Assembly (NCBI GenBank): GCA_026874595.1
Contig: CM049307.1
Span: forward strand, 60,974,370 to 61,038,369
Source of the DNA: Sipunculus nudus
Lineage: Eukaryota > Annelida > Sipuncula > Golfingiida > Sipunculidae
Reading direction: 5' to 3'
DNA: 64,000 nucleotides
Part shown: in pieces, positions 1-47,500 of the stretch
Layout of the letters: every line of letters begins with the position of its first letter
Position numbering within the stretch: position 1 is the stretch's first letter
Notes under the pieces: model-generated
What the model saw: the letters and a program-made list of their open reading frames with translations, nothing else
What the model was told of the DNA's origin: nothing
Databases searched by the model: none
Program-made: the position numbers and the translations under genes

Positions 1-92
1 CTGCTGGATTTTGAGATGAAATTAGTAAAAGCAATATCTAAATACAGACTCGAAAGCAGTAAGAAATAAGAACTGCTGATATTTACAGTTAC

Positions 93-280
93 GAGTAAAA
101 ACTATCCAATCAGCGTAGCTCAACCAGAAGGCGTTATTTTTCTGGTTCAGATTTTCCCTCATCTCGACCTTTTCGTTGCCGATATAGATGTATTTGTATC
201 TTTCATTGGTGAAAGGTTCCCAGGTCACGTGGCCCTCCGTTTCCACGCCAGGTGCAGGGAGGGGCTCAGGTGTGGGGTTC
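93..280 (-). CDS. Esterase 1 exon 10
   Basis: Encodes NPTPEPLPAPGVE and the C-terminal catalytic-domain motif [13 protein letters not shown]. Acceptor TTTTTTGTAG. The donor at 92-91 (ACTC then GTAACT) leaves phase 1, the same as in the paralog. Without splicing, translation would add 24 unrelated residues and stop at 22-24. Confidence 0.8.
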
Positions 281-2903
281 CTACAAAAAAAAATAAAGCG
301 TCTCAAATTTGACGACTTAGCAGTTTTAGTGTAGTAGTTTTGGCATATATACTGGAGCTGAATGTCACGTGGTTTGATCCTCGTTGCAACAAATCTGAAA
401 TTTAAAGCTGGTCAAAAGACGTGTTTTGATGCCCACATTATATTTGACCCGCAACACCTTCTCACCAAACTAGCCACACCTATCTATGAAAACTGACACT
501 TTGTGTTCTGAAATCCTGCGAATCCTACGATCGGTCCTCCGAACATAACCCCTGCCGCCCGAGCTTTTCGGAATAAACGACCCTTTGCTGTAGTTATTAT
601 TACTTTAGCTTGCACTTACCCATATTTGGCAAAATTCGAGAAGAGGGTGATAGAATAGTTGCTGAAGCGTTTGTCTGTGTCAGTCCAAGGAAAGACGGTC
701 ATGAAGTCCAGCTTTGAATCCCGCAACACCTCTGGGTGATCTGGAGCCTGACACCAGCCCCAGTGGAATGGCAGATCTCCGATACCGTGTATCACGCCTG
801 AATAACATCTTCGAGTTAATGAAAACGCTTATAATAACATATTTTTTAACATGCATCAAAATGTCATTCATCTATAACTTTGCGAACCAGATTCTCCATG
901 GGTCAAAAAAGTATTTACCGAAGGATCGAAGACGCTCATTTAGAAGTTTAATTAATTTAACATTTATTAATGTTAAGTTAAAATATTTTCATTATAAGTA
1001 ATCTTGTAGTTTTCATACATGTTGCCTCTGAAAAAAATCTGTATTAGAAAATTTCTTTCAGTGTCAGTAATAATGTTTTCTGTACGTGTTCTGAGAGAAC
1101 ACAGATATATATAAAAATAGTAAGTTTCTCTTCTTTTGAATTTTAAGTTAAAGTATAATTTTGAATTTTTTAGTAATATTGAAATTTTATTGTTTATTTG
1201 TTTTATTTGAATTATTCGTATAAACATCAAATAAAACTTTGTTTCTATCACTGTCAATAATAATTTTAACTCTATTAATTAAAATAAAAATTTTTTTACC
1301 TCTCTACAGGTAAACAAGACAGCTATGATGATTAGGAAAGCTTACCGAACCATTCGGGTAAAATTTGATAGTGCGGACAGCCAAGGTAGGCGAACAGGTA
1401 TTCGTAGGTCTCATTATACTGCGCATGACTCTTCAAACTGTAGTCCAAACTGACACCATAAGCAATGTCTGTAACTGCCTACAATATTCATGAAACTGGA
1501 AACGTAAACAGATAAAAGCATACTGGACCTGTGGACCCATTTTAGGTTTTGTCATTGGCCCTCCTGGGTTGGACCCCTCCTTTTCCTGAATCGTGGATCC
1601 GTATAATGAAGATATAAAATTATAATATATTCATTTTTTGAACTTATAAACATGAAATTTCTGCGTGTGGAGCCTTTCTCTAGCACCTGATGGTATATGC
1701 TTGCTAAAAAGGATAACATAGTCAAAATTCTATGCAGCGGTTAAAACGAAGGAGATTTGGAACGATTCGAACGCGAGGAGTACATATTTGCACATGATAT
1801 CTATTTTTTTTTCAATTTGACCTTGACATAGTTTTTCAAGTCGTGACATAGTTTTCAAAGTCGTGATCGTTCGGCGATTTCCGACCTCCATTCACCTGTC
1901 GTAGTTGATCCCTGTTGTGTTCCGGTTCCTCGTCGTACGGCCAGTCTGTGAAAAAGTACTGCATGGCACGGCTCATGTACTCCTGGGTACCCTGCGGGTC
2001 ACGTGCCAACACCCAGCTGATCATACGGTTCCGGATAATATGATAATGTTCACTCCGATTCCACCCTCTCTCCATGGCCTCAGGTGCGACTGAAAGATAA
2101 AGCTAGGTGTGTTGGACGAGGTACGTACTTAAAGCTACCTGTTCACCTAACTTTTGAAAAATATTTTTTTTTGTGATTTCTGGCTTTCTCTGCGTATATA
2201 TTAATGATCTAAGGGTAATTCTGGTTATAAAATTTTTTTAACGCCTCCGTGAATGTATGAATTTGTTTAAACCTGTTTATCAACAACTTGTGTTTAAACA
2301 AAGCAATGTTGACAAATGCCAAAAGCATGTAACCTAAGTTGATAGGCTGCATATATGCGCAGGTATAAAGAACAAATCACCATGGCTTTGTTGAATTTAA
2401 TAAACACATTGATATAAAACAAAAAAAAAACAGCCTGTGTGCGGTGATATCCACGTTTTCTGGCCTATTTTATAAAAGCTCCAAGGGATTACCTTTAGTT
2501 TATAAAGGTCAGATAGGTGATTGGGCCAATTTAAATTCCAGGGAAAATGAACATGCTCTTTTCAGCAGGTTTAAACTGAATTTTCGGCTTGGTACTCGTT
2601 TTTCCCCGTTAGATTTAACATATTTTATTGTATGTGCGATTGAAAAACAGTGGTACTGCTATGTAAATGCCTCTTGCAGTAATAGTGTACAGTACATTTA
2701 CACAATACAATATTAACTCAAAGAATGAGAATGAACAAAACTTTGTTGGTCACATTCTTTAAATAACCAATTAGATAATTATAATATTGAAACTGCACGA
2801 TCAAGTTTTTTTTTAATTAAAACGTATTATTAAGAAAATAATGATGTCATGTGCTGTGTCCATAATGAAAGATTTTCATTCATAAATATATAGTAAATAT
2901 ATA

Positions 2904-2967
<64 letters not shown>

Positions 2968-4487
2968 GAATTATTTATTATTTAGAGATATTCCGGTTAA
3001 GAAAAGTGAAAGAGCATACAAAGCTTACACGGCAAGAGGTACGTAGTCCCGTCCTCTGACGTGTGGCCGGCCATGACTTTGACGTTTTTGTTGAACCTCC
3101 CCTGGTCTCTGAGTTTGTAAGGATCGTCAGGGAGGATCCCTTCTGGTCCATCAACCACAGGTGCAAATCCCAGACTGATGTAACCGGACTGCAGAGAAAT
3201 AAGTAGACTACATTCTATTGGATTCTTACACGCCAGTGATTTTTTTGTTTTGTTTTTAAATCTTGATTTATTTTTTAGGCATGAAAAACACTGTATAACA
3301 ACTGATATATTCAAAACGAATCTTATGGGTATCATACTGACACAAATTACACACGAGAACTGTATAGAGGAATACTTCTATCACACTATATATGCAGTAT
3401 CTGTTTATATAATATATATAATATATAATATATAGACTTTATATAATAGATAGAGCTTTTTTTTTCTGGGGTGCTCAATCATGCTGCAAAAGTTGGAAAA
3501 TATGGGTATGGATACCTATAATTTCAAGTTTGCAAGGAGATTTTTCATGGACCTTATAGGATGTCAAGTTGAAAGATTCTAGGTCTAGTCATTAAGATTT
3601 GTGCCCTGTTAACAGATGACAGCTACTTTTAAGGTCTCAAAATTTTTTTTAAAAATCGTAAAAAAGAAAAAAAATACAGGTGGCGTAAACAGTCTGCACA
3701 AACTGATGAACCATTCCATGATCAATATCCATGCAAAGAATCATGGTCATCAATGCATTAGTTGTTAAGATACTTGAGCTTTTGTATCGAATTTTCCATT
3801 ATTCTGGGGGGTACCTCAGAGCCCAATAGCTGGAAGAATATGGGTAACAGAGACCTAGTTTTAGGTTTCCAAGGAAATCTTTCATGGACCTCTCCGGATA
3901 GTTAGAAGATTTCAGATTCAGAGGTTACGATTTGTGCCTGGTTGGTTAAAACATATTTACCTGATATTGACCTGATAGACATTTAGAAAAATATAGTTAA
4001 TATAGATAATAGTTACATTACATTTCATGAAATTTTCAACATAAAAAACGTCTTGATGATTTCTGATATGTGAAGACATGATCAAGTATACATTGATTGA
4101 CTATTAAAATGAAATCTGATGACCCATGTAATAAGATAGACATTAATTTATCTGTTTGTCGTCTTCATGGATTTGACATGAAAGAAGTTATTATATCAGG
4201 GATTATATTTTGTAATTGCTCCTGAAGTAGTTGTCGTGCGATTCCTTAGTATGAACACATTAACTCACAGACGGACAGCACGACAGACGGACGGACGCCG
4301 GACAAAGGGTGATCGCTATAGCTCGCACGACTTTCAGTCAGCTTAGCGAAAAAATCGTGATTCGTGAAATGGATCAGTACGGTCAGCAGGTGGCGTGCGC
4401 GCTATGTCTATGTATAGCTCAACTAATCGCGCCCGCTGCAAGCTCGTTTCTACAGAATTTCCCCAGGTTCAGGAGTTATCAAACGTT

Positions 4488-4582
<95 letters not shown>

Positions 4583-7500
4583 TACCGGGTGACAGCTTTT
4601 AGAATGTGGCCATTCCACAGGTTGGCGGAGACATTTAATCGTGTATCGAATCGCTGTCATACTAATAGGCGACTTTATATGGATAGTGTATCAGGAAACA
4701 GACTTTGTCAGAGCCCCGAAAGAAGAGCCTGTTTGGGTTAATTTAAATTAAATATTATGTATTTATATCGTACACGCCTTTATTGTTTTTATTGTAATGT
4801 TGTTAATAACAAAAGTTGTGCTTGCTTTATTCTTTTTTAAGTTTTCACATTTTTTAGTACGGTATAAATAAACGTGTACGACACACTTCTTTTTTAATTT
4901 ACTGTCTTATTATGCAGAATTAGGCGGTAAACTAAATCAGTAATTCAAAATTATAATTAATAGCTACCTAAGTTAGCAACGTATGGCCAGACGAGCTGTT
5001 GTAAGACCCTTATAGTCAAACCTAACTTAGGGGACCACCTCGGAAATGGAACCACTTTATCTCAGTCCCGCTTGGTGATCGTAAATCGGAGGTTTTACTG
5101 TATATATAACATGTAAATATACTTACGATTAGTGTTGGGACGATATGGGTTTTTGATATCATGATAATTATTCAAATTTTATCGCGATATACCGTGATAT
5201 CGCGATATTTTTAATTATATATAATGGCATTAATAAGCCATTAATAATGATATTTATAACAACCACCTTTAAAGTCTTGACTTTATACAAGGGGTTAAGT
5301 ATTAATATCATTTACACCTATTGTGCCAGTACCACAGAAAGACTCATTAAGTGATGTAAGTTGCATGAAGGTCCTGCAGGTGTGCAAGCTTGAGGCGCGG
5401 GAAGTCCTGCTCCCATCGTCAAATCATGCTTGTCAGAACTTTCCATCAGTTTCCTGTAGCTACATAAAAGCCGGAGAATCCCGGCTAATTTTCGGAGAGC
5501 GTGTGATACCAATCATGGCTAAATATACCATCCAAATTTTATATGGCAAAATATGCAACCCGTATGGAATGTTCGATTCAGTTGTGACACTTTTATGTTG
5601 AAATTTTCGTTCCATGCAATAAAAGCATAAATATGTGTATTTATTGCTCTTTAATTATAATGTTATTATCTCCTGGAATTCTCAAGTTTTTGTCCTCTCT
5701 GATTCATCCTGCTACTTCCGGACATTTCCGACTAATCCCGAAGTTTGTAAGCACACGGTTCCACCCACACGCGGACATTTCAGACGAATCCCGAAGTCTG
5801 TAAGCACACGGTTCCACCCACACGCGTGTATTCAAATACATGTGGTTTATAAAAATAAATGTGATTCTTTGAAATAAATTTATTTTGAACCTCAAGGGCT
5901 TGCTTGTGAACCAAAATCGTGAACAAAAAATGATATCGTGGTATCGCGATAATAGGAAAGTTGACGGTATGATAACCGTAGCTGTCAGATATCGTGATAA
6001 TACCGTATACCGGTAACCGTCCCAACCCTACTTACGATATTGTCTACATAAGCGTTCCGGATCTGGTCAAACGTTTTTCCTCTCAGACAGGTGATCATTT
6101 CTTGTGAGGGGCTGACGGGACAGCTCAGCTGGCGGGCTACCTGTCTGGTGTACTCTTCCGGCGGTACACCTGGCGGGTTGTAGGCCCACGGCGACATGTC
6201 AGTCCCGCTGATCATGAGCGCCTGGTGGAACAAACCTGAGCAGACGACAAAACGGAAGTTTTGCTACAATAGGGTGATACCCACAATTCCGTACTTTAAA
6301 TAAGCACCATTTTAACATGTCAATGTTTTTATCATTCAGTTTCCTTGAAAATTACACACTTTCCGCAATAGAAAAAGAAAAATAATATTTCAAAATATTT
6401 TCATCCATGCGAGTTTCGAGTCAGTTGCAAAAACGATTTTGAATTAAAGGTAACCCATCTATATGGCACTGGAATTACACATCTTCCTATATAAAACAAA
6501 AAAAAAAAAAAAGAATTTTCAAGTTCCAGCATATAATATTGTAATCTGTACCAATATCGTACATGTATTCTTTAACGATATATCTTTCAATATGACCAAA
6601 ATATTTAGATTCATGTTAAAAATTTATTGTCAGGATTTGTAAATGCTACTTTATGAAAAAAGGATAATTGTTCTGTCATAAAGATCTGTCCGTAAAGGCT
6701 TCGTTAAATCATAATACAGCTGCTGGTAAGTGGGATATTATCCTCAGGAGTTTTAATTTATGTGGTCGATGCACTCTAAATATCTAAATATCTCTAAATA
6801 TCTGTAAAACTAACATTTTGCCCTAAGGGTACATTCGTTAGAAAACAACACCCTGAACAGAAAAAAAATCTTCCCAAAAAGGCTCTGATAGCCTGAACTG
6901 ATCCAATATTTTCAAGTATTTGAAGACATTTTTTTTTACTTCAAGTTATTTTAAGATGACTATACGTGATCCAGCGCTCAAATTAAAACCAAGCGTGAAC
7001 TAAAAAAGCACCCAGAGAGCTAAAACCCCCGCCAATGCAGCTCATTACCCCCATATGGCATTGTCAGAAATGCAGCATTTTTCCTTTTAAAAAATTCCTC
7101 GACCCAGATGATGATCTGCATCACCCCCACAATTTAATCATTCCTTGTTCCTTTTATCATTGCCGAGCTATCCTGAAAATTTCTTCAAAATCCGGGGGTA
7201 TATGCTGATCAAGTCCAGGAGGATAATAGGTGCAGATAATTTAGTGGTTTATGCAGAGTCTTTATACCTTCAGACTTCGGGGACAAAATATGGAAACCGG
7301 CACTGCTGGCGCCTGCGCTCTGACCGAAGATTGTGACCTTGTTAGGGTTCCCTCCAAAAAACTTGATGTTATCTCTTACGAAAATCAGGGACTCTCGCTG
7401 GTCCCAAAGTCCCCAGTTACCCCTGGCAACGTCGTCTCCTGTGCTAGCAAAACCTGCAAATATTTACGGTTTATTTATTTATGTGCACCTTACAAAAACA

Positions 7501-10500
7501 AAATCCTCATCCTCCCAAAAGTCTAATTCCATTACAGGTATATAAATGACTGAATACTATGTGTATTATTTCACTCTATTACTAGTATTATTTCGTTTTA
7601 CTGGAATGCAAAAGCTTCGAAGCAAAAACATCGCGGAACACGGTTTATTCCCCTTTTACAAGTAACTATTGTTCTGTATGTGAGTAAACACAGTCCATTT
7701 TTACCATAACAAGACTGCGTGACCAGAGGTCCGGCTTTGCGCATGCACGATAACTCTCCAACATTAAAAAAACATGACAGGAGAAATGCAGAAGAAATTA
7801 ACGCCGGTTGGATTGTTGCGGTACAGGGAGCAGGTGGCGAGTGAGTTATGATTATGTTTTGCACCACTGGTCTCGCCAGGTGCAAGATTATTTCCACTTG
7901 TCTACAGGAGTAAGGAGATGGTTCCTGAGCAAAATATTAGCATAATATTGCAAAAAGAAAACACTATACTTCATGTATATTTATCACACCTGGTGTGTGA
8001 ACAGGTCCCATTACAACTACAAATTTACGCACACACACGTATAGATTCTGCTTCTCGCACACTAATTTCTTCGCCTGGTCTACATGGCGCATGGTCCAGT
8101 AAATCGACAAAGTATTAAATTTAATGGGGAATGTTTACATTTTGTAAACAGCAGAAAAAGACACAGCCTACCTATTGCACCAACCCGGTAATTGGCCACG
8201 ACAACTATAACTCCTCTGACGGCGTAGAAGTGACCAGGATACATAACATTGGAACCGCTGGCGTAAGCCCCGCCGTAATAATACACCATCACCGCGTATG
8301 TCTCGTTACCAACAGGCTTGAGAAGAAAAACCATATCGTAACTACATAAACAGAGAAAACGTTGACAGCACGTCTTTACAATCCCTTGATTTGTGTTTTA
8401 TTCAGTAATAAGCCTATTATCAAATGTTCACGTTTATTATAGTACCATATAACCCCATCATGTTTCAGTGCCAGTGCCTGTTCCTTGCCTCGAGAAAAGA
8501 TTTACAAACAGACAGAAAAAAAGATCATGCACCCATATACAGGTCAGGAATAATAAATAAATGTAACTGACGTTATGTTTCAACTCGAAGCTTTTAATTA
8601 AAGCCTAAATAAAATACTAGTAGTTTACATGAAACAGACGGAAGGACATATAAATGTGCAAAAACATAATATCTTTGTTAAAAACGCGGTTATGTTTCAT
8701 GAACTAATTTTGTTTTACATTTCCTGTTTACCATGTTCGTGAGATTCGGACTGGAAATCTATTTACCATTATTTATTTTGGAGGATTCAAAGGTTAGGGT
8801 GCTAATTTTACGGTCATATTATAATTACTTCTCAATGTACATGTATATTGATTTATTATAATTAACCATGTGACATTCAAAAATTAAAAAAAAAAATCGG
8901 ATTCCTTCCTTATTTTTTACGTGTGGTATTCAGACATATTCAGTGTATAGATGTTCATGTTTACATGTAGTGTATAAACGTTCAGACTTACGTGTTCTTT
9001 ATATATGTTCAGACTAAAGTGTACTCTATAGATGTTCAGACTTACTTGTGGTGTATAGATGTTTAGACTTACGTGTGGCGTATAGATGTTTAGACTTACG
9101 TGTGGCGTATAGATGTTTAGACTTACGTGTGGTGAATAGATTTTAAGACTTACGTGTTGTGTACAGATGTGAAGACTGACATGAAGTGTATAGATGTTAA
9201 TTAAGACTTACGTGTGGTGTATTAATGTTAAGACTTACGTGTGGTGTATAGATGTTTAGATGCAGACAGTCTTCCTTGATGTCATTCCAGTCGGGATGGG
9301 TATCCACTCCGCCGCCACATGACGATCGGAATTCAGTGCAGTTCAAGATGCCATTCCAATTCTCTACTGTTTCTGGTTTCTGAATTGATATAGTTATATA
9401 ACAAATATGATATGATTCCGTATAGAGCAGAAAGTTTAGTGTCAACTAGTGTGTTAATCCAGGCTCAAGTGCACTTTTACATTTTACCCATATAAATACT
9501 TGTAAATATTGTTTATGCTATGGATTCAATATTGTTGAGGATGAAGCTCACTTTATGCAAGAGTGTAAATTATATCACGATTTGAGGTTAAAATATATTA
9601 GACAAGACTTGCATTATCCAAGTGAACAAAATTTTATAAAATTATTTAATTTAGATAATCCATTTGAAATATCAAAAGTTGCTGCATATGTGTTTAATTC
9701 GTTTTTGAGGAGACGGAAAATGATAGATGGTTGAATTATGTATTTTAAACAGTACTCACTGTTGACAGCACAATAGATTCATTGTGTACTTAGGTGTGCA
9801 ATAATGTTACATGTGTTTATGGCACGATTGATTAGTCATTTTAAGACTGTTACTTAACATTATATTGTTGTAATTTTTGAACTGACTGTTTATTGAAATG
9901 TAATTATGTTTATCCTCACAGATGATGGCAAAACAGATTTATATGTATGTAGGTATGCAGTTCTGTTACTTGTGTTAATGGCAGTGTTTACTAGAAAATA
10001 TAAGACTGCTACCTTCCATTGGATTGATGTACTTTTTAAAATTGAATATTTATTGAAATGTTTGGAACTTTGGGCCTGAGGCCTTTTTCCTGAATAAAGT
10101 TCTGTTCTGTTCTGTTCATATAAATACTATAACAGGTTCACAATTAGCCATCGTGCGCGGGTGACTCATAGATTTGGGGAGCACTGCCCACAGACCACAC
10201 ATGATGAGTGTGGCGTCTCTGAAATGATATTTCTGTGATTACGACAGCAGTTCTGACAGAAGATCAATCACACCACGTAGGCACGGAAGATTCACAGATT
10301 GTCGTATAAATAACATGTGCCCCAGGTATGATAAATAAGATGAAAAAAATGCATAATAAATATGATGAACTAAGTGCGTTTACAAGAAACGAAATGTGTG
10401 AAAAGGGCCAGCAGTTTTTCAGGGACATAATTAATATGCCAGCTATAGTTCGGGCAAATAATGGAAGTGAAATAACAGGGTTCGTAATACTTTCAAATGT

Positions 10501-11387
10501 TGACTTTTCCAACGGAAAGGCAAAAAAACTTGGTTTTGACTTCCGCAGGAAAATTTGCCTTTCCGCTATAGATGCATCCTATCATCATAATTATGAAAAT
10601 ATCAATCAATTCCGTTTAGATTTTTTTTGGGAGAACGGTTAACCTGCGTCCAAATGGCAACACCCGACAATCTCTTTGTTATGAATGCTGTGACTGAGTA
10701 CCCAGTAACGTATTTCCCTACAAAGTAAGAATGGGGGTGGGGTTAAGACTGACTCCCGGCTCTATTATGCGTCTGCTGCTCTGCATATCACGGAGCTTTA
10801 TGATTTCATCAGCAATGAGAAGCCATAATAGCGCGGGGGACCAGTCTAGCTGGGGGTTTCCAAGTTACCATTATGTGAGGGGAATTTTCGTTTTTACGTG
10901 TTTTATTATGCGTGACGCGGGGAATATTTGGAAGTTCACCATTCCCATAGATTGGTACAAAATGAAAATTAAATGCCTTTCCGGTCACGTGTTTGCATGT
11001 CTGAGACAGGCGTTATTACGACCCCTGCATAAGTAAAGCTAAATAATGGCACATTTTTTTTATGTCACTTGGCATTTGAAATAAACCGAAAATTGCGATC
11101 CTTTCTAGATCTAATAAACACAAAACCATAAAATACGCACATGCTTAAACAAAATGAAGGGCTTAATCTGTTACGAGAGTTAATTGGGAAGTCTTACTCA
11201 CGGCAAAGCGGAGGTCGCCGACTGGTGGTTTGGCAAAGGGAACTCCCTTGAATGATGCGACCTGCTGGCCATCATTTAGAGTGACAACACTGCCCCGGAC
11301 AGAACCATGTCTCGTGTTAACGACCACGCCTGTTGCTGGGAGGAGCAGCCCAGCACAGAGACCGAGCAGTAAACACCAAGACGCCAT
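93..11387 (-). CDS. Secreted type-B carboxylesterase (cholinesterase-like), gene 1, exons 1-10, 3' end outside window
   Basis: Alpha/beta-hydrolase of the carboxylesterase type-B family, predicted to hydrolyse esters outside the cell; substrate unknown. Exons in order: 11202-11387, 9239-9379, 8172-8316, 7268-7453, 6036-6235, 3029-3188, 1896-2089, 1346-1478, 620-797, 93-280. All junctions are GT-AG and the phases join without a frameshift. Residues 1-20 are a signal peptide ([20 protein letters not shown]). The oxyanion-hole motif YGGAY is at 123-127, the nucleophile Ser203 is in GQSAG, the acid is in SEDGTTY (331-332), and the catalytic His452 is in VIHG. The family more often has GESAG. The start ATG follows AAG and precedes GCG. 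Exon 10 could read through to a TAA at 22-24 (593 aa in all), but similarity to the paralog stops at WIVF. I therefore prefer the donor at 92-91, with further exons left of the window. A cholinesterase function is not shown. Confidence 0.9.
620..797 (-). CDS. Esterase 1 exon 9 (catalytic His)
   Basis: 178 nt, phase 1 to 2. Encodes GVIHGIGDLPFHWGWCQ with the triad His452, then [15 protein letters not shown]. Longer open frames on both strands over this interval are shadows. Confidence 0.9.
1346..1478 (-). CDS. Esterase 1 exon 8
   Basis: 133 nt, phase 0 to 1. Encodes AVTDIAYGVSLDYSLKSHA and [11 protein letters not shown]. Matches esterase 2 exon 8 along its whole length. The longest open frames over this stretch read other frames. 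Confidence 0.88.
1896..2089 (-). CDS. Esterase 1 exon 7
   Basis: 194 nt, phase 1 to 0. Encodes [15 protein letters not shown] and the acidic stretch [13 protein letters not shown]. Acceptor TTTCAG, donor GTGAAT. Confidence 0.9.
2904..2966. repeat. (TA)n microsatellite in esterase 1 intron 6
   Basis: About 30 uninterrupted TA units beginning 60 bases downstream of the exon 6 donor. Confidence 0.95.
3029..3188 (-). CDS. Esterase 1 exon 6 (catalytic acid)
   Basis: 160 nt. Encodes [14 protein letters not shown], then LPDDP and [10 protein letters not shown], which aligns with the family DEG motif and supplies the acidic triad residue. Ends CCG T before GTAAG (phase 1). Confidence 0.92.
3440..4340. 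repeat. Dispersed repeat with CAGACGGACGGACG end, esterase 1 intron 5
   Basis: Two related sub-units (around 3470 and 3810) share TGGAAGAATATGGGTA-like and TTTCATGGACCT blocks. The region ends in CGACAGACGGACGGACGCCGG (from 4271), an end also seen in the tandem families near 20.8, 45.7 and 58.1 kb. No coding potential is seen. Confidence 0.5.
4491..4580. repeat. (CA)n-(TA)n compound microsatellite
   Basis: About 20 CA units run straight into about 25 TA units. Open frames across it read alternating TH and YI only and are artefacts. Confidence 0.95.
5130..6030. mobile_element. Non-autonomous hAT-like DNA transposon on the exon 5 donor
   Basis: Ends are inverted repeats: TAGTGTTGGGACG at the left, and the complement of CGTCCCAACCCTA at the right. 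It is flanked by the 8-bp duplication CTTACGAT (5122-5129 and 6031-6038), the length hAT elements make. Both subterminal regions hold many copies of the palindrome TATCGCGATA. A direct repeat of about 52 bp is found at 5718-5825. No transposase is visible, so the element is non-autonomous. The duplicated target is the esterase 1 exon 5 splice donor. Confidence 0.85.
6036..6235 (-). CDS. Esterase 1 exon 5
   Basis: Encodes [12 protein letters not shown], which continues the strand after the Ser elbow; phase 1 to 0, 200 nt. The last three bases and the donor lie inside the target-site duplication of the hAT-like element at 5130-6030. Confidence 0.92.
7268..7453 (-). CDS. Esterase 1 exon 4 (catalytic Ser)
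   Basis: Phase 1 to phase 1, 186 nt. Contains [13 protein letters not shown] and the nucleophile elbow [10 protein letters not shown] (Ser203). Acceptor TTTGCAG, donor GTATAA. Confidence 0.93.
8172..8316 (-). CDS. Esterase 1 exon 3 (oxyanion hole)
   Basis: Residues 110-157 plus one base. Starts PVGNETY (a possible N-glycosylation site), carries YGGAY, and ends NYRVGAIG with the Gly codon split. Acceptor CAAG, donor GTAGGC. Confidence 0.9.
8937..9262 (-). repeat. 27-bp minisatellite built from the exon 2 splice donor
   Basis: About 12-13 units of roughly 27 bp (core on the plus strand ttacgtgtggtgtatagatg then tttagac). On the coding strand each unit is the last bases of exon 2 plus its GTAAGT donor and adjoining intron. 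The most exon-like units abut the exon; those further out are more diverged. The unit is 9 codons long, so the frame is kept between neighbouring units. Confidence 0.85.
9239..9379 (-). CDS. Esterase 1 exon 2
   Basis: 47 codons, phase 0 to 0, containing the motif EDCLHLNIYTPH (family EDCLxLNxxxP). The acceptor is TTCAG before AAACCAG. The donor GTAAGT is the first of a tandem series: the exon end and donor are repeated downstream in the minisatellite at 8937-9262. Confidence 0.92.
9471..10119 (+). mobile_element. 3' end of a LINE (non-LTR retrotransposon), antisense in esterase 1 intron 1
   Basis: The frame ending with the stop at 9732-9734 reads the zinc-binding tail typical of LINE ORF2: CKYC, then VEDEAHFMQEC and KLYHDLRLKYIR. 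A 3' UTR of about 380 bases follows, ending in AATAAAG and a TTCTG tandem tail (10095-10119). It is 5'-truncated, as LINE insertions usually are. Confidence 0.75.
11202..11387 (-). CDS. Esterase 1 exon 1 (start, signal peptide)
   Basis: Encodes residues 1-62, from the ATG to ...PPVGDLRFA, and ends in phase 0 at donor GTGAGT. It contains the signal peptide and the family motif FKGVPFAKPPVGDLRF. Confidence 0.92.
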
Positions 11388-37200: not shown

Positions 37201-40200
37201 AGACGATTTCGGCAAGCAACAATCATGTGGAACGGACTTGTATGCCTGCCACATCGAAGATAATGGCATGCAACAAATTAAATATACAGGGGTATAACAT
37301 GTAGACACATTTTTCTGCGCGCCCTCTCACACATGGTTAAGAATGTTGGTTTAATGAAGGACACACATACCTCTCTTAGTTTCCTCCTGTTGTTATTGGG
37401 CTCCTCGTCGTACGGCCAGTCCGTGAAATAGTACTGCAAGGCCCTGCTCATGTATTCCTTCCTGGCTTCCGGTTCCTTCGCAATTACCCAGCCTATCATG
37501 CGGTTCTTGATGAAATAATAATGCTCACTGCGGTTCCACCCTCTGTCAAAAGCCTCAGGCACGACTGTAAGAGAGCAGAAGTGATCCATGATTTATCACT
37601 GCTGATTGTCAGATTCATAAATATATAAATGAAATGGTAGGTAGCAACATACTTCTTGTGCATGATAAAATATCCAAGATGTTTGAACCTAAGAAATACC
37701 AGGCTAATCCATAAAGAATAATGCCTTACACATCTGGTCTTTTGTACGGATTAGATAATGAGAAACAAATTATATATGTCACCAGGCACCCCTAATTGGT
37801 AAAGCTATGCTAAGCTTTCATGCTGAGCCTTTACATGTCTTACCTTAGGGAAGATCAAAATCTTGTTTCTTTACTGACAGGCTCATACATGTATAATACG
37901 TATTTAATTAATGAATTGAATGCAGATGTTTTTACTTTTTGAATGTGTTTGCATCGTCCCATTGGTTAAAGCCTGTTGGAAAAGATCAAACATTTTTATT
38001 TGCAAGATTCTCATCAAAGTGTGTCACGTAGCAGAGGAGATTTCATTTCTAGGTGCAATGTGTTTATGTGTATGTGTGTGCGAACATGTGTGCCTTACAC
38101 GGAAGAAGGTACGTGGTCCCGTCTTCTGACGTGTGACCTCCCATTACCCTGACATTCTTGTTGAAATTTCCACGTTCTCTCAGCCTGTAGGGATCATCAG
38201 GCAGGAAGTGGCCCTCTCCGTCCACGACAGGTGCGAATCCAAGACTGACGTCACCAGACTGCAAATTTTTACTTTCTTACACACCATAGCCAAGCTTGAG
38301 TGAGTATTGTTATAGAGTGCATATAATGATGGACCTTACTGTCCCGCCATTAAAGCCTGTCTTTTTGGCGTAGCGGTTGGAACGCTGGACTTGTGTGCCC
38401 CCGACATGGGTTCTGATCAGCGATCGACCCAACGTTATTTCCTATGGTTGAAAATAACCTTATATTTAAGTCTGTCCACCTAGAAATGAGGGCTCGTCCG
38501 GGATTGCTTTTTTGCGGCCCCGGGGGAAAGGTGGTCTCGTAACAATTACCGCCTCCTAGTTCACCAAAAGTGTGACTTCTTAGAAAACTAGATATTTCTT
38601 TGCACCGCAGGTGCCATAGTATCCCAAGACAGTTAACCCCCCCCCCCCCCCCCCCCCTAAGAATAGGCCCTCCATCTTCAGCAGCATATACTGACACTTG
38701 GCAAACAAATATGGTTTCTTCCATCTATCAACTTGAAAAACAATAATTTTCACCATATGGGGGCCAATACGGCGAATCACGGTGATCAATGGACATGCAT
38801 AGTTTCAGCCCAATCTGTCCATTAGTATTAGACTTATTATGTTCACAGTACTGTCAAGTGGCAATGATGGGGTATTAAAAGGCGCGAAAACAAGAAAAGG
38901 ACAGAAGGTGGCGCCAACTGTCTCCCGCAGAAGACCAAGCTATCAAAGATCTTCGGTCAATTTGATTTTGGACCAATCCATGCATCCGTTATTGAGATAA
39001 ATATGATTTTGTGTGATTTTCATCATATATGGCAATATTTCAGGTCAAAGCTACTCTCATGGGAAAGGTCATGACTCCAATTTAAATATACATAATTCAA
39101 TAACCCATATCTATGTATATGCATAATATGATAGAAATCTGTCCATTAGTTTTTGACTTATAATGCTCACAGTACCGTTTAGTGGCAATGGTGGGGGTAT
39201 TATACGGCACGAAAACAAGAAAAGGATAACAGGTGGCGCCACCAGTCTCCGGTACATGACAACACTACCCAAGATCTTTGGTCAAGTCGATTTTTGGATC
39301 AATCCATACAAGGTTTCTTGAGAAAAGTAAAAAAGTAAAAGCTTTTAATAGATGTGCTCAGTAATGTCACTGTGCATCATAGTATTAAGTTTAACTGAAA
39401 TGTCTTCATTAGCAAATGGAGAAATAAGCTTAATAAAAATGTTTAACCTGATTTGTTCATGAACAACGTAGGCCTGTGAGCTTGACCTTGAACATTTTCA
39501 TACCTAAAATTATAGGGGGGAGGGGGGATTAATAACCATCTATACAATAAATATGTGTAATATGAAAGCAATCGGGTCAGTGGTTGCCGAGTTATAGACT
39601 AAACAATAAACTCTAACCCGGGTTGTCTACGGACGACGCCGAGGCCGACGCCGAGGGTACGAAATGGACTCTCTTGAACTTCGTTCCGGCGAGCTAAAAA
39701 GATCTTGGAGTGACGTTATTTTACCGGGAATTTCTGAGTTCACGCAGACCCTATGCGTGAAAATTGCCTTCAGATATACCCTTCTAAGAAAAAAAGGATT
39801 CGTGATGGGTTTTTTTTCCAAGAACCCTTGATTGTTCTATCTAGAACCATGGTTCCTGCTAGAACCATTTTCTCAGTGAAACGGTTCCATCCAACATTTA
39901 AACAGGGGCGGATCCAGGATTTAGGAAAAGGGGGGGGGGGGGTCCAACCCAGGAGGACTTATGAAAATCCTAAAAAAAAGGTCATCACGTCTGGAAAAGG
40001 GGGGTCCAGGCCCCAAAATTACGTCTAAAACCCCTTAAAAAAGGTTGCTTCGGGTGAAAAAGGGGGGGTCCGGACCCCCTGGACCCCCCCCCCCTGGATC
40101 CGCTTCTGTTTAAAGGTTTATGCCACATCATTTCTTATAATAGGGTTCCAGATGGAACCTTTGTTGTGACCGGATGTCTCGCTATGGGCACATGGAATCA

Positions 40201-41471
40201 ATACAGTTACGGTACAAAATCATAGGATTGATTTCCACGCATATATTTGCATGTCTGCATATATGTATGACAACACAGATTAAAGTGTATCTTACTGAAC
40301 ACAGCGTCCCCATGTAACTTGTTATGCATATTGTCCTGCCTAAGTGTCAATGGATACTAAATAACCGCCTCATGTATAAGTTTTGTAGAACCCTAAATGC
40401 TACACAAACTTGCATGTCATTTTATGGAGAAATATTATGATAAATCATCAACATATTGCTATATAGTCCACCAGTAACGGCAAGCACGAATTAGGATTTT
40501 GGAATACAACTAATAACATATAAACGGAAGAAACTTACGAGTTGCTGGATACGTGCACCCCGAATTTCCTCAAAGGATTTACCCCGTAGACAGTTGATCA
40601 TTGATTGAGAGTGATTTAGTGGGCAATCTAGTTGGCTGGCAATCTGCTGGGTGTAGTTTTCCGGGGGCAGAGTTCTTCGGTTGTAAGCCCAGGGTGCCAT
40701 GTCAGTTCCGCTGATCATGAGAGCCTGGTGGAACAGACCTGCACAGACAAATGACAACAAAAGTTAAGGCCAGACAAAAAAATTGTTTTGTGGACTTGTC
40801 TCTACTATTTTTCACGGTTACTTTTCTATGCGTGTGAATTAAGGTGCACCATTTTTCCGCTGTTACGGTTGCTAATATATTCACTTCTCTCTTTCCATCC
40901 ACCACGTGAATTAATAATGTAAAATAGTTTCATTCATTAAAAAAAATATAAATGAAAATTGAAAATGGATTCAATTTTGTGTTGTTCAAGCGCGTCATTT
41001 CATTAACTGTGGATTTTCTAGGCCGGTAATATAAAAATCAATTTTTATGGAAGCCTACACTGATTTTTTTTAATATATTATTTTTTATTTAGATACCCTA
41101 AAAGTTCTTTCTTTTAGATTTAGATTATGCAGAAGTAAAAGAGTACCTGACATATTGTAAAAAGCTTACGACTTAGGTATCTTCGTTTGCAGTAACATAG
41201 CAATTTGTCAAGGGTTCATAAATGAAATGAGATTTCAGTTTCACCTTCGCGAAAAGCGTAGTAAGGGTAATTTAAGATATTTTCATAACAGAGGAAGAAA
41301 ATAGAGCAAAATAGAAACTTGTCTTATTAAAAATGAATAAAAAATATTATCTTGTGCAAAAATAAATGTTGTGGGAGTACTTTTCTCAAGAAAATGCCAC
41401 AATTTCTACTGCCGTTGATTCTCTGCGGCCTTCCGTGCGGCACTGATGTTACAACAGTCACCACCAGTTCC

Positions 41472-41507
<36 letters not shown>

Positions 41508-44500
41508 CCTGCCGTGCTCTCATGTCTACTTTTGCCACATGACCTTGTCTTTGACCTTACGGAAATGAAAATGTTGTCCAAACATTGAATATCTCAAATA
41601 AATTATTGTAAATATTGGTTCTTTTAGCAAATTTATTACAAAAATTAATAGATATAGCCATAATGTTATATTGTTGCAATATATATTGTAGCCACATATT
41701 TTTATCAACTGTTAAGCATTATTTACGAACTAAGATGTTTTGGAATTGATTTATAAACAACAAAACTTATTTAAGTATTCTGATATTCAGGTAACAGGTA
41801 AGGATTATTGGTGACCAGAGTTCGTGTCTTGGCAATATGGCAGGGCCAGTAATCGTCTTCTAGCTCTTATCATTTTGATAAAATGCAGTTTCATCATATC
41901 TTACATGACCAGGACGCTCCCTCATGGCACCTGTGCATGGCAACTGTTAAAAAAGGATAGGTAAACATGCATAGCTTAAGCTGCATCTTAGTGTACTCTC
42001 TTACTTGCCTAATGAAACTAGCAATTTCACGTCTTCTTTAATACAGAAAGTATGTTTTTATTAATAAAAGTCGAAATATACAAGTAAAGAATAAATCTAG
42101 GATATGAACAATTCATCTGTTGCATCGTAGAAAGGATCTTTCTTTTCAATGAGCATGCGCATCAAGCGTCATGGTCGTCTGCTGAGTTCTGGGCGAATAA
42201 ACAATCATCGCTTGTTTTTGTCAAGTGATCCCAATAATAGACCGGAGACTCCCACAGTAACCTCATCGCTTATGATACTGCGCAAAAAATATGACATTGC
42301 TTTGTCAATGATTCAGACCTGATCTTATTGTCAGTCTTCGCCGATAGGTGTGGCGTTGACTGGAATAAACAGATCTGAGCTTAGTTTCAGTCTTCGCCGA
42401 TACTGACTGACTCAAAGTGAAGTCGGCGCTCGAGCCAGTCACACAGGTCTTCGGAAAATCTGGCCCGCACTGGCTCACTTAGCAACGACAAAGTTTGACA
42501 GACTGAGTCGGTTGAGGTTGATTCAAAATATTTAAGGCGAAAATAGAAAATACTGACAGAATTGAAGATCGTAGTGAGAGAGGTGGAGGAAGCCGGAGAA
42601 CCCGGAGAGAACCACCGACCTTGGAGGGGAACTACGATCCAGTCTTCGCCGATAGGTGTCGTTAGTTAACTGGAATTGAAAGACCTGAACTTAGTGTCAG
42701 TCTTTGTCAAAAGGTGTTGCTAGTTAACTAGACAAGGTGTTATGCAGAAGACGTGCACAATTTTATTTATTGTAACTCCTTACCTTCAGACGCCGGTGAA
42801 ACGAGATGGAGGCCAGCGCTGCTAGCGCCTGCACTCTGACCGAAGATGGTCACCTGATTTGGGTCTCCGCCAAAAAATTTGATGTTATCTCTAACGAAAA
42901 TCAGGGACTCTCGCTGGTCCCAAAGTCCCCAATTGCCCCTGGCGGCGTCGTCTCCTGTGCTGGCCCAACCTGTCAAAGATTCAAAATAATAAAATAATAC
43001 AACCAATTAGTAACTTAATATAGTTGTTTTAGCATGTGACTATTGACTTTGACCTTCAACAGTAGGGTTTAGTGGTTATAAAAAATAAACTGTTCTCAGA
43101 GATTTTGGTTTTAGATAATGAAATACTCAATTATTTGAAGATATGGTTGTGATTTCATACTAATTAATTTGGCCAATGCCCTTTTCCTTAATTCCAGCTT
43201 TCATTTTGGAACTGATCTGTCAAGTTAAGAAAATATTTTTTAAAAATTTAAGCATTATTGTGGAAAAGACTATCAGCTGTGTTGTGCTGAGTGAGAACTA
43301 CTTATTAAAAGTCACTTAATTTTGAACCTAAATTGCTTGTATCCGAATGATAAGGAAACGCAGACCCGTTTATCCTTTATCACTAGCTGCGCTAACTATT
43401 AAAACACTTACCAATAGCAGCCACCCTGTAGTTTGCGACCACCATGACCACGCCCTGGGCCGCGTGGAAGTGGCCCGGATACATAACGTTAGAACCGCTG
43501 GAGTACGCCCCGCCGTAAAAGTACACCATCACGGGGTAACTCTCATTGCCGACAGGCTGAAGATATAAATGCAAGGATCGTGTACTTGGTGGATACGTAG
43601 TTAAATCGGAGTACATGCATTTTGATATATTTTTTTTAAATATTTAGCCTGTTTCAGGATCAAAGTGGTTTTCCACGTCATTATAATGGAGTTTAGTCTA
43701 TCTGAGTTAGTGTTTAAAATATACAGCAGATGGCAGCAACTACCACAGAAACGCATTCAGTCAGGCCCTTCGATGAAAGCTAGAGCCAAAGGTTCCGTTT
43801 TACCAATCATTATTTGGATTAGAGATTGTAAAAAAATACAGTCTTATAATCTTCATTCTTAACCTCGTTGGGTTTTTTTTGCGCTTCAAAACACTTCTCC
43901 AATTACGCTGATCAGTATTTTCTATCTTGTTTTTAACCTCGTTAATTTTTCTGCGAAAATATATGATACATTATCATTAAAGATAACTATAGTGACTATA
44001 TTCACACAAGAACGTGATCCTCTGGAATATTATACGCAAGTACAGATACATACATGTGGTGTAAAGATGTTGACGTGTAAGCAGTCCTCTTGGATGTTGT
44101 CCCACTCGGGATGGGTAGTTACACCGCCCCCACATGACGCCCGGAGTTCAGTACAGTTCAAGATGCCACTCCAGTTACCAACCGTTTGAGTTCTCTGCAT
44201 GCAAGAAACCACAAAGTAAAATTGTTGTGGATAATTTTAGAATTAGAGGCGTGCGGCGGGTGGGTGGCCGCCACTTTGTCAACATTGCATTGACAACCCT
44301 CTGTATATAGGTTTGTGAAGAGAACATTAGATCGTTCATATGACGTCATCCTAAGGTATAAATGAGGCCCATACATAAGGGGCAAGGTTGATATATAGAG
44401 ATTTAATTAAACTGATATGTTGTTTAAAATAATTATGTTGTAATGTATTACCGGTATCATATTTATATAGAAGTACAAAAATGGTAAAGAGAACGCTGAG

Positions 44501-47500
44501 AGTCTACCTCACAAATCGTTGGACGAACACAGTAGGAATTTCATTCAAATAAGGTGGGGAATATATGCAAATTAACCTATGCCCCACAAGAGCAGCTCAT
44601 TTTCGAGGATATGCACTCATTATCTTAAAAAGATCCTTCGAAGCTTCCCGTCATAAATCGCAATGTTTCCAACCATACACATTCCTATTAGCTCATGCAA
44701 TCGGATGATACTGAGAATAAGGAATGTCTCATTTTATTCACAGTAAGTGCCCATTATTTCGGTCATACTAATGGCTTACAGCATCTATATGGTGTCTTTA
44801 TGGTACACAAGAAATTTTTGAACAAATGTATATTTTTACAGTTCTGTCCAACCAATCAATGAGGTAGACTCTCGCCGAACTGCGTTGTTTAGACAAGCGG
44901 TACTTTTTTTTTTACCTAATTGTAAGAGATAGTTTGATATGTTATGATGCTTGCAGATAGCGTTGCACGTTACCACATAGCAGTACCTGCAGACGTCGAT
45001 TTTTACGATTGATTGTGCTTTAAGAGAGCACTGTCTCAGCAACACCCTTAGTTAACTAGAATATGGGTAGTCGACAAGCGACTACGTGTATCCGCCGGAA
45101 TCAGAGTGGGACGGGTGAAGTGAGGCATGGATTGAGTAGCATGGGGAAATAGAGTGAGGTGTGTTGCATATAAGCATGGATGTCTGCAGCCGAAATGTGT
45201 ATGTAGGTGGCGCCACCTACCACAAAATCCAGAAAGCTATCCAAATTGTATACATATGCAAAAGTTTAGGTAGATAAGTCAAACCACTACTTGTATATGA
45301 GTGATTTTATCCCATAAAAGACAAACAGAAGGACGCTGTGCAAAAATGGTTGCAGGTGGCGCCTCCTGTTTTGTGTATGATAAAGTGCTATGTGTGATCT
45401 ATACACATGCCAAATTTCAAAAGGATATGTCAAACCAGTCTTGAGATATAAGCCTGTATGTCTGCAGCCTGAATGTGAATGTAGGTGGCGCCACCTGTCA
45501 TAAAATCAATAAAGCTATCCAGGATGTATACACATGCCAAATTTCAGATGGATAAGTACAACCAATGCAGAGATATGAGTGATTTTATCCCAAGGCAGTT
45601 GAACAGATGGACGCTGTGCAAAAATGGTTGCAGGTGGCGCATTTTTAGTGTATGTTATAAAGCTATCCAAGGGCTACATTTGTGCAAAATTTTTAGCCTG
45701 ATCGGTCAAACAGTTCCCGAGATATGTGGGTTTATGTGTGGAAACAGACGCACAACTGGACGCCGGGCAGAGACGAAAGGTCAGAGGTCAACCAAAAATA
45801 AGGGCGCAGCAGTTAACATGTGACCCGATCATAATTCTGAATTCAAAAAAAAAATTCTGCCCAATGTTTACGGTGGAGTTCGCCGGAAACCTATGCGGTG
45901 GCGGCGGCGGCGGCGGCGGCGGCGTGCAACTGGAAACATATAATCCGCAAAACTCCGTTTAGATAACTTGACTGTATCATCTATTTTGCGCTGTGAGTCA
46001 GACTATCGGAGAACTGGAGCTATAAATAAAACTATCTATTATTTTTATTATTATTATTATTATTATACCATTCCTACATATTCCATATATCTGCTAAAAA
46101 TTTTCAAACAAACATCGCCGTCATTTTACATCTACACTTTAAAAAACCCTTGTGTTGACCAAACACAAGTTTGTGTTCACTGCAACATAATACTTGAGTA
46201 ATATATAAAAGACACAAGCTTGTGTTCTGTTTACACAAGTACCTGTGTCAAGTCAAATGTCAACACAGGTCTTGTGTTGAAATCACATTTTAACTTGTGT
46301 TGTTAGAACACAAGTTTTGTGTCAAGTATGAACACACAAGTGTTGTGTTCCTTACCCAACTGACTTGTGCAGATTTTACAATCTACTGGTGTTATTCTTT
46401 CACACATTACTTATGTTGCAGGAACAAAATATTGTCTTCCTCATCCATTCCACTTGTGTTGATTTATCAATCTACTTGTGTTATTCTTTCACACATTACT
46501 TGTGTTGCAGGAACAAAATATTGTCTTTCTCATCCATTCCACTTGTGTTGATTTATCAATCTACTTGTGTTATTCTTTCACACATTACTTGTGTTGCAGG
46601 AACAAAATATTGTCTTTCTCATCCATTCCACTTGTGTTGATTTATCAATCTACTTGTGTTATTCATTCACTTATTACTTGTGTTGCAGGAACACAAAATT
46701 GTCTTCCTCATCCATTCCACTTGTGTTGATTTATCAATCTACTTGTGTTATTCATTCACTTATTACTTGTGTTGCAGGAACACAAAATTGTCTTCCTCAT
46801 CCATTCCACGTGTGTTGACATAACAATTTACAATTCACACATTATATGGGTTGCATTAACAAAACGTAGGTGTTGTTAACCCTTTCCGTTTTTGTCGATA
46901 TAATAATCTCCTTATAGGAATCTTAAAGGTTCACAAGTAACATTGAAAAAAGGGGTTCATAAAAAAAAACACTAGATCTTATTATTTTATTGTTAAGCTG
47001 GCACATTCAGCCACCCACAACTATAAAAAAATTACTAGCGATTTGATTCCCAGTGCAGAGCAAATGTATGATATTGAGATATCAGCAATATTAATGTGAT
47101 ATATTTATAGCCGTTGCTTGTGACGGTAGTGCCATGATGTGTCAGGAAAGTTATCTTGGCTTATAAACTCATCTGTCTACGGTAAAAATTTTACTATATA
47201 TACGCAGTGCTCCTTGAACCTTCCGTACTGTAAACTGATAAACTCGGGCAGGTTTCAGGCCAAAAAAAGGTATGGTTCTCAGGCACTTTTTTTTCAGAAA
47301 TCAGTGCGGGAGATTTTTTTTTTTTTTTTTACTTTTTTTGTATGTTTTGAATATAATGTCATATGATCAGGGAAAAGCGAAGGATGATAATAACATATTT
47401 GTTTTTACTAAACAGGTAAAACATAGCAAAGGAAATCTCATCAAAATTGTATTATTTTATCTTCTTGAAAGATGAAAATCAAAATAATTTTTTTATGCTG

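Follow-up and report, generated by a model that had tools for sequence, protein, structure and literature searches.

A recent, probably silent hAT insertion at the exon 5 splice donor of a cholinesterase-like gene in Sipunculus nudus

The window analyzed here, a stretch of 64,000 nucleotides of Sipunculus nudus DNA, contains two tandem paralogs of a cholinesterase-like gene, E1 and E2, both encoded on the minus strand. Intron 5 of E1 contains a short transposable element whose exon-proximal end lies within the splice donor. The features are as follows, with a caret marking an exon-intron or target-element junction and TSD denoting a target site duplication.

73-11387, minus strand: gene E1, cholinesterase-like, ten exons, frame open throughout
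11387-11202, 9379-9239, 8316-8172, 7453-7268, 6235-6036, minus strand: E1 exons 1-5
3188-3029, 2089-1896, 1478-1346, 797-620, 280-73, minus strand: E1 exons 6-10, the end of the last exon being provisional
6036-6235, minus strand: E1 exon 5, 200 nt, with a boundary common to E2-E4
3189-6035, minus strand: E1 intron 5, now 2847 nt, or 1938 nt without the element and one TSD
3029-3188, minus strand: E1 exon 6, acceptor CTCTGCAG^TCC
5130-6030, no strand assigned: non-autonomous hAT element, 901 bp, ends TAGTGTTGGGACG and CGTCCCAACCCTA, no coding capacity
5122-5129, no strand assigned: TSD, distal copy CTTACGAT
6031-6038, no strand assigned: TSD, exon-side copy CTTACGAT
6029-6035, minus strand: exon-side donor GTAAGTA, +1 to +5 from the target and +6 and +7 (TA) from the element end
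5120-5126, minus strand: distal decoy donor GTAAGTA, with its original downstream context
37371-49196, minus strand: tandem paralog E2, exon 5 ending CAACTC^GTAAGTTTC at the homologous codon, element absent

The E1 protein covers positions 4-515 of the 515 in the Pfam COesterase domain (PF00135, E 4e-128, 567 residues submitted), and the presence of the full domain places it in the carboxylesterase/cholinesterase family. Exon 5, which ends at 6036, joins the start of exon 6 at 3188 in phase 0, and an alignment of the E1 protein with butyrylcholinesterase 6emi has no gap at this join. Given the open frame and the full COesterase domain, the possibility that E1 is broken, with its donor of no consequence, was rejected. 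The catalytic glutamate of cholinesterases, found in KDEGT of 6emi, corresponds to an aspartate (SEDGT) in E1, where it falls in the exon at 3029-3188, and also in E2 and E3. In the rest of E1 intron 5, a second repeated sequence occurs at window positions 3487-3605 and 3824-3938 (∼72% alike), and its similarity to a cluster in L048 (893-1906) is 71-80%.

The 901-bp element has a terminal inverted repeat in which 12 of 13 end bases are inverted-complementary, and its longest stop-free stretch is 107 codons. An initial annotation of this DNA had described an 8-bp duplication flanking the element and an original donor displaced by 909 bases. Both copies of the duplication were found, they are identical, and the element plus one TSD amounts to 909 bp; the interval given for the feature, however, ended at 6040, two bases beyond the right TSD. 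Read on the minus strand, which is the coding one, both copies are ATC^GTAAG, the end of exon 5 followed by the intron 5 donor. The exon-side junction on this strand is ACAATATC^GTAAG^TAGGG, or GACAATATC^GTAAG^TAGGG with longer upstream context, and the far copy reads ATC^GTAAGTATATTT. Within the element there is a 53-bp direct tandem duplication (window 5719-5824, copies 94% identical), which is probably old in the family because 901 bp is also the full length of most parsed copies.

A genome search with the element, in which the best of 727 first-look candidates were scored, yielded at least 40 long matches of 95-100% identity, the window copy included, and one further short partial match. 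All 40 copies were fetched and 39 were parsed for both ends, L015 being the unparsed one. A perfect 8-bp TSD flanks 36 of the 39, again counting that of the window; the mismatched TSDs are those of L012 (one mismatch) and of L021 and L039 (five each). When the 36 perfect TSDs and the single-mismatch TSD were profiled together, leaving out the two with five mismatches, T was found at position 2 in 25/37, A at position 7 in 23/37, and both in 16/37. Excluding the window copy, the preference is T2 in 24/36 (p 1e-5), A7 in 22/36 (p 2e-4), and both in 15/36. The family thus has an nTnnnnAn target preference, the same pattern as that reported for Hermes (PMC2803484).

Transposase-bearing relatives of the element are present in the same genome. 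A search with the hAT domain PF05699 gave at least 150 scored matches, and among the best 20, which were cut as loci, 11 contain an end like that of the 901-bp element. Two of these PF05699 loci were fetched wider, and both have 8-bp TSDs and an open frame of 681 aa: L081, an element of 3159 bp with TSD CATTTAAG, and L082, an element of 3191 bp with TSD CAGGTGAA. Both ends of the window element are common to L081 and L082 (79 bp at 86% and 121 bp at 85%). The L081 frame contains the hAT dimerisation region (PF05699, 3.2e-22) and a zf-BED domain (2.4e-9), both of which are absent from the window copy, and it aligns with the Hermes transposase 4d1q over 139-657 (E 4e-24). The window copy belongs to a different element from Hermes and is a non-coding derivative. 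The 8-bp TSDs, the short terminal inverted repeats, the ends in common with a transposase-bearing hAT, and the transposase of the partner L081 together identify the 901-bp element, at the level of sequence, as a hAT, in agreement with the hAT-like origin first proposed for it. It was probably mobilised in trans by these related 3.2-kb elements.

Two other copies, L002 and L003, have identical sequences, from which the window copy departs at one site in 901 bp, a private change. The nearest of the other 36 copies differs from it at 18 sites. By any clock, this insertion, which is known from one assembly, is young.

The age of the intron can be judged from the paralogs. E2, E3, and E4 lie on the contig and strand of E1, and in each of them intron 5 occupies the identical codon in phase 0 with the donor GTAAGT; exon 5 ends GCCATC^GTAAGTGTG in both E3 (L045) and E4 (L059). 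A BLAST search of the element against the E2-E4 stretches gave no match. From the exon 5 end through all of intron 5, the 8-mer ATCGTAAG occurs twice in E1, once each in E3 and E4, and not in E2, which carries CTCGTAAG once in its place. The initial annotation had suggested looking in an ortholog for these 8 bp repeated without the element; the check was run on E2-E4, which are paralogs and not empty alleles, and no such repeat appeared. The intron is shared by three paralogs that lack the element, and intron 5 predates the insertion. The same intron in all three element-free paralogs examined also rules out creation of the intron by the element in the manner of introners.

With a phase-0 boundary at 6036 that is common to the paralogs, the insertion does lie at the exon 5/intron 5 junction, as originally described, and both donors are intact after it, each reading ATC^GTAAGTA. 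Since the target is duplicated, an insertion before ATC and an insertion after GTAAG are one event, which from the viewpoint of the exon puts the element within the intron, between +5 and +6 of the donor. The exon side reads GTAAG^TAGGG, so that the terminal T of the element indeed completes the donor as +6. Both ends of the element family start with TA, which places T at +6 and A at +7 whichever orientation is taken. For pairing with the 5' end of U1, the duplex energies are -7.3 kcal/mol for the exon-side donor and -7.6 kcal/mol for the distal donor, compared with -4.4 to -11.4 kcal/mol for the eight other donors of E1. The exon-side donor is weakened little by the insertion, because the terminal TA provides +6 and +7. 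The copying of the donor by the staggered cut had been taken as the sole reason why the insertion was tolerated. That conclusion is not warranted, since a blunt insertion between +5 and +6 would leave an identical exon-side donor; the TA start of both family ends matters as much as the copying.

We consider it likely that a recent hAT insertion between +5 and +6 left the exon-side donor in use and involved no donor targeting, the choice of donor being read from the bases at the two sites. A non-autonomous hAT element, probably supplied with transposase by the related 3.2-kb elements, inserted recently into the 8-bp ATCGTAAG that spans the exon 5 end and the intron 5 donor, and its terminal TA remade +6 and +7. 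The spliceosome most likely still uses the exon-side donor, in which case the transcript would be unaltered and the element would leave with intron 5. The distal donor, a near-equal local match, probably goes unused or serves as a minor route without a useful product, and the insertion would be close to neutral. The marginally better U1 pairing at the distal donor speaks against exon-side use. It could be argued that both donors are used, and that a distal-spliced share of transcripts keeps the element, meets a stop, and is degraded, resulting in less esterase. The likeness of the two ATC^GTAAGTA sites, their near-equal U1 pairing, and the presence of an in-frame stop are in keeping with this; the displaced donor is, as described earlier, a possible decoy. 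Splicing from the distal donor would lengthen the exon by 909 nt to 1109 nt, which by sequence would put the whole element into the mRNA, as previously stated; reading from exon 5 into the element, however, there are 16 codons and then an in-frame stop, and because of this stop the protein would be truncated and the transcript is probably a dead end. Splicing by the long-exon route would face competition from the upstream donor, which is intact and sits where the exon naturally ends. A short new exon is also poorly supported, as a simple pyrimidine rule picks out one acceptor-like TAG in the element and GTRAG is absent from its coding orientation, both being features of the sequence and not measures of usage. 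We regard use of both donors as unlikely. That the 8-bp repeat is explained by local duplication or by a join in the assembly, and not by transposition, is extremely improbable: no support for it was found, other perfect 8-bp repeats flank the same element at 35 other sites, and the 8-mer is single in E3 and E4.

A further alternative is that, over and above any base preference, functional donors are recognised by the family, with open chromatin as one conceivable cue, and that the window is one of many such landings. Exact matches to both family ends (TAGKGTTGGGACGRTW) were sought in the 1.43-Gb genome, which gave 661 family ends, compared with 6 for the same pattern read backwards. GTRAG lies immediately outside 9 of the 661 ends, that of the window included, and the permuted motif TGRAG lies outside 5; the two counts do not differ significantly (p 0.42). 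The background expectation at 661 ends is 0.95 for GTRAG and 1.07 for TGRAG, so that the observed counts have p 8e-7 (≥9 GTRAG) and 0.005 (≥5 TGRAG). This background was taken from the sequence of the region excluding L044, which is rich in donor arrays, and the excess over it is conservative because the window and L059, which also contain arrays, were retained. The expectation from the TSD profile is 8.3 for GTRAG (p 0.45) and 2.6 for TGRAG (p 0.12), where the profile treats the positions of 36 TSDs without the window copy as independent and, having been derived from near-full-length copies, is applied to all 661 ends. The excess of donor-like bases over background, which favors recognition of donors, is accounted for by target preference without donor targeting, since 8.3 GTRAG ends are expected from the preference by itself and 9 were seen. 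Active donor targeting was therefore rejected, the 5 ends at the permuted TGRAG also counting against it, and the landing would be explicable by the target preference of the family alone. By eye, in open frames within 300-400 bp, no convincing exon was found on the donor strand at the other eight GTRAG sites (L062 and L083-L089), where the longest open stretch is 61 codons of low-complexity sequence in L088; a recognised exon abuts one of the nine ends, that of the window. If there are 60,000-120,000 GTRAG donors genome-wide, 0.13-0.26 real donors are expected among nine, so one is unsurprising, especially for a finding selected because it looked odd. We judge recognition of functional donors by the family to be very unlikely.

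Donor-like bases adjoining a related element were also examined at L062 (TSD CTTACTGG) and L082, and no upstream exon was recognised by eye at either. At L088 (G000:C13:53335806-53336136), inspection by eye shows an acceptor-like site on the opposite strand, which reads CCCTTTCAG^TGATGAAAAATATCGC and is coding-like. The end of a related element is situated ∼35 bp beyond this site, on its outer side, and close to a possible branch point.

A bolder reading, which we hold to be rather doubtful, is that this hAT lineage is pre-adapted to harmless landing on 5' splice sites. It follows from the resemblance of the target half-site beside the element, approximately RTRAG, to the donor core GTRAG, and from the TA at both ends, by which insertion between +5 and +6 keeps GTRAGTA in either orientation. 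If true, donors would be a recurrent, near-neutral landing niche, and introns would lengthen with a spare donor left each time. The reading fits the counts but rests on one recognised donor.

Known systems offer several points of comparison. Maize Ds and Ds1 insertions, also of the hAT type, reportedly interrupt exons, behave as introns, and are processed by splicing, as is said of Adh1-Fm335 and in accounts attributed to Wessler (1991) and Giroux (1994). The present element is similar in being a non-autonomous hAT with an 8-bp TSD, ends of C/TAGGG, and probable removal by splicing, but it was added to an intron already present, next to the donor, and can do without a new splice site. Ac/Ds ends are C/TAGGGATGAAA (PMC3260210). 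Introners (PMC9860276) are DNA-transposon-like, have TSDs, draw splice sites from the element or the TSD, and create introns. Here too a DNA transposon with a TSD contributes splice-site bases from element and target, whereas the E1 intron is common to the paralogs and is older than the element, and among the nine GTRAG-abutting ends one such landing, not an intron family, was recognised. In AUX/IAA16 of Bassia scoparia (PMC12277486), an LTR-type TRIM element inserted at an exon start with a 5-bp TSD. Both are recent insertions near a splice junction with a TSD; unlike the hAT with its 8-bp TSD, the TRIM altered splicing and protein. No animal example in which a hAT struck a donor and restored it through its own duplication was found in the open-access literature subset searched. 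The locus adds a case to a type already described, a hAT element that lies, probably silently, at a splice site. It provides a readable case in which a DNA transposon struck the exact edge of an exon, probably silently, and left a second full donor 909 bp downstream, as well as a countable link between the target preference of a transposase and the splice donor motif, in which preference alone explains the 9/661 ends.

At the start of intron 2 in E1, E3, and E4 there is a tandem array. The repeated unit, which measures 27 bp in E1, includes the exon 2 end and its donor. The arrays are located as follows.

Window 8942-9260: intron-2 donor array of E1
L044 7326-8821: intron-2 donor array of E3
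L059 7920-9123: intron-2 donor array of E4

The array contains 8 GTRAG motifs in E1, 37 in E3, and 24 in E4, with 0 in E2. The spacings are mainly 27, 35, and 54, of which 27 is frame-preserving, and in E4 the frame stays open through eight more units until a stop is reached. The array appears to be a minisatellite of competing splice donors, and is possibly more interesting than the hAT landing.
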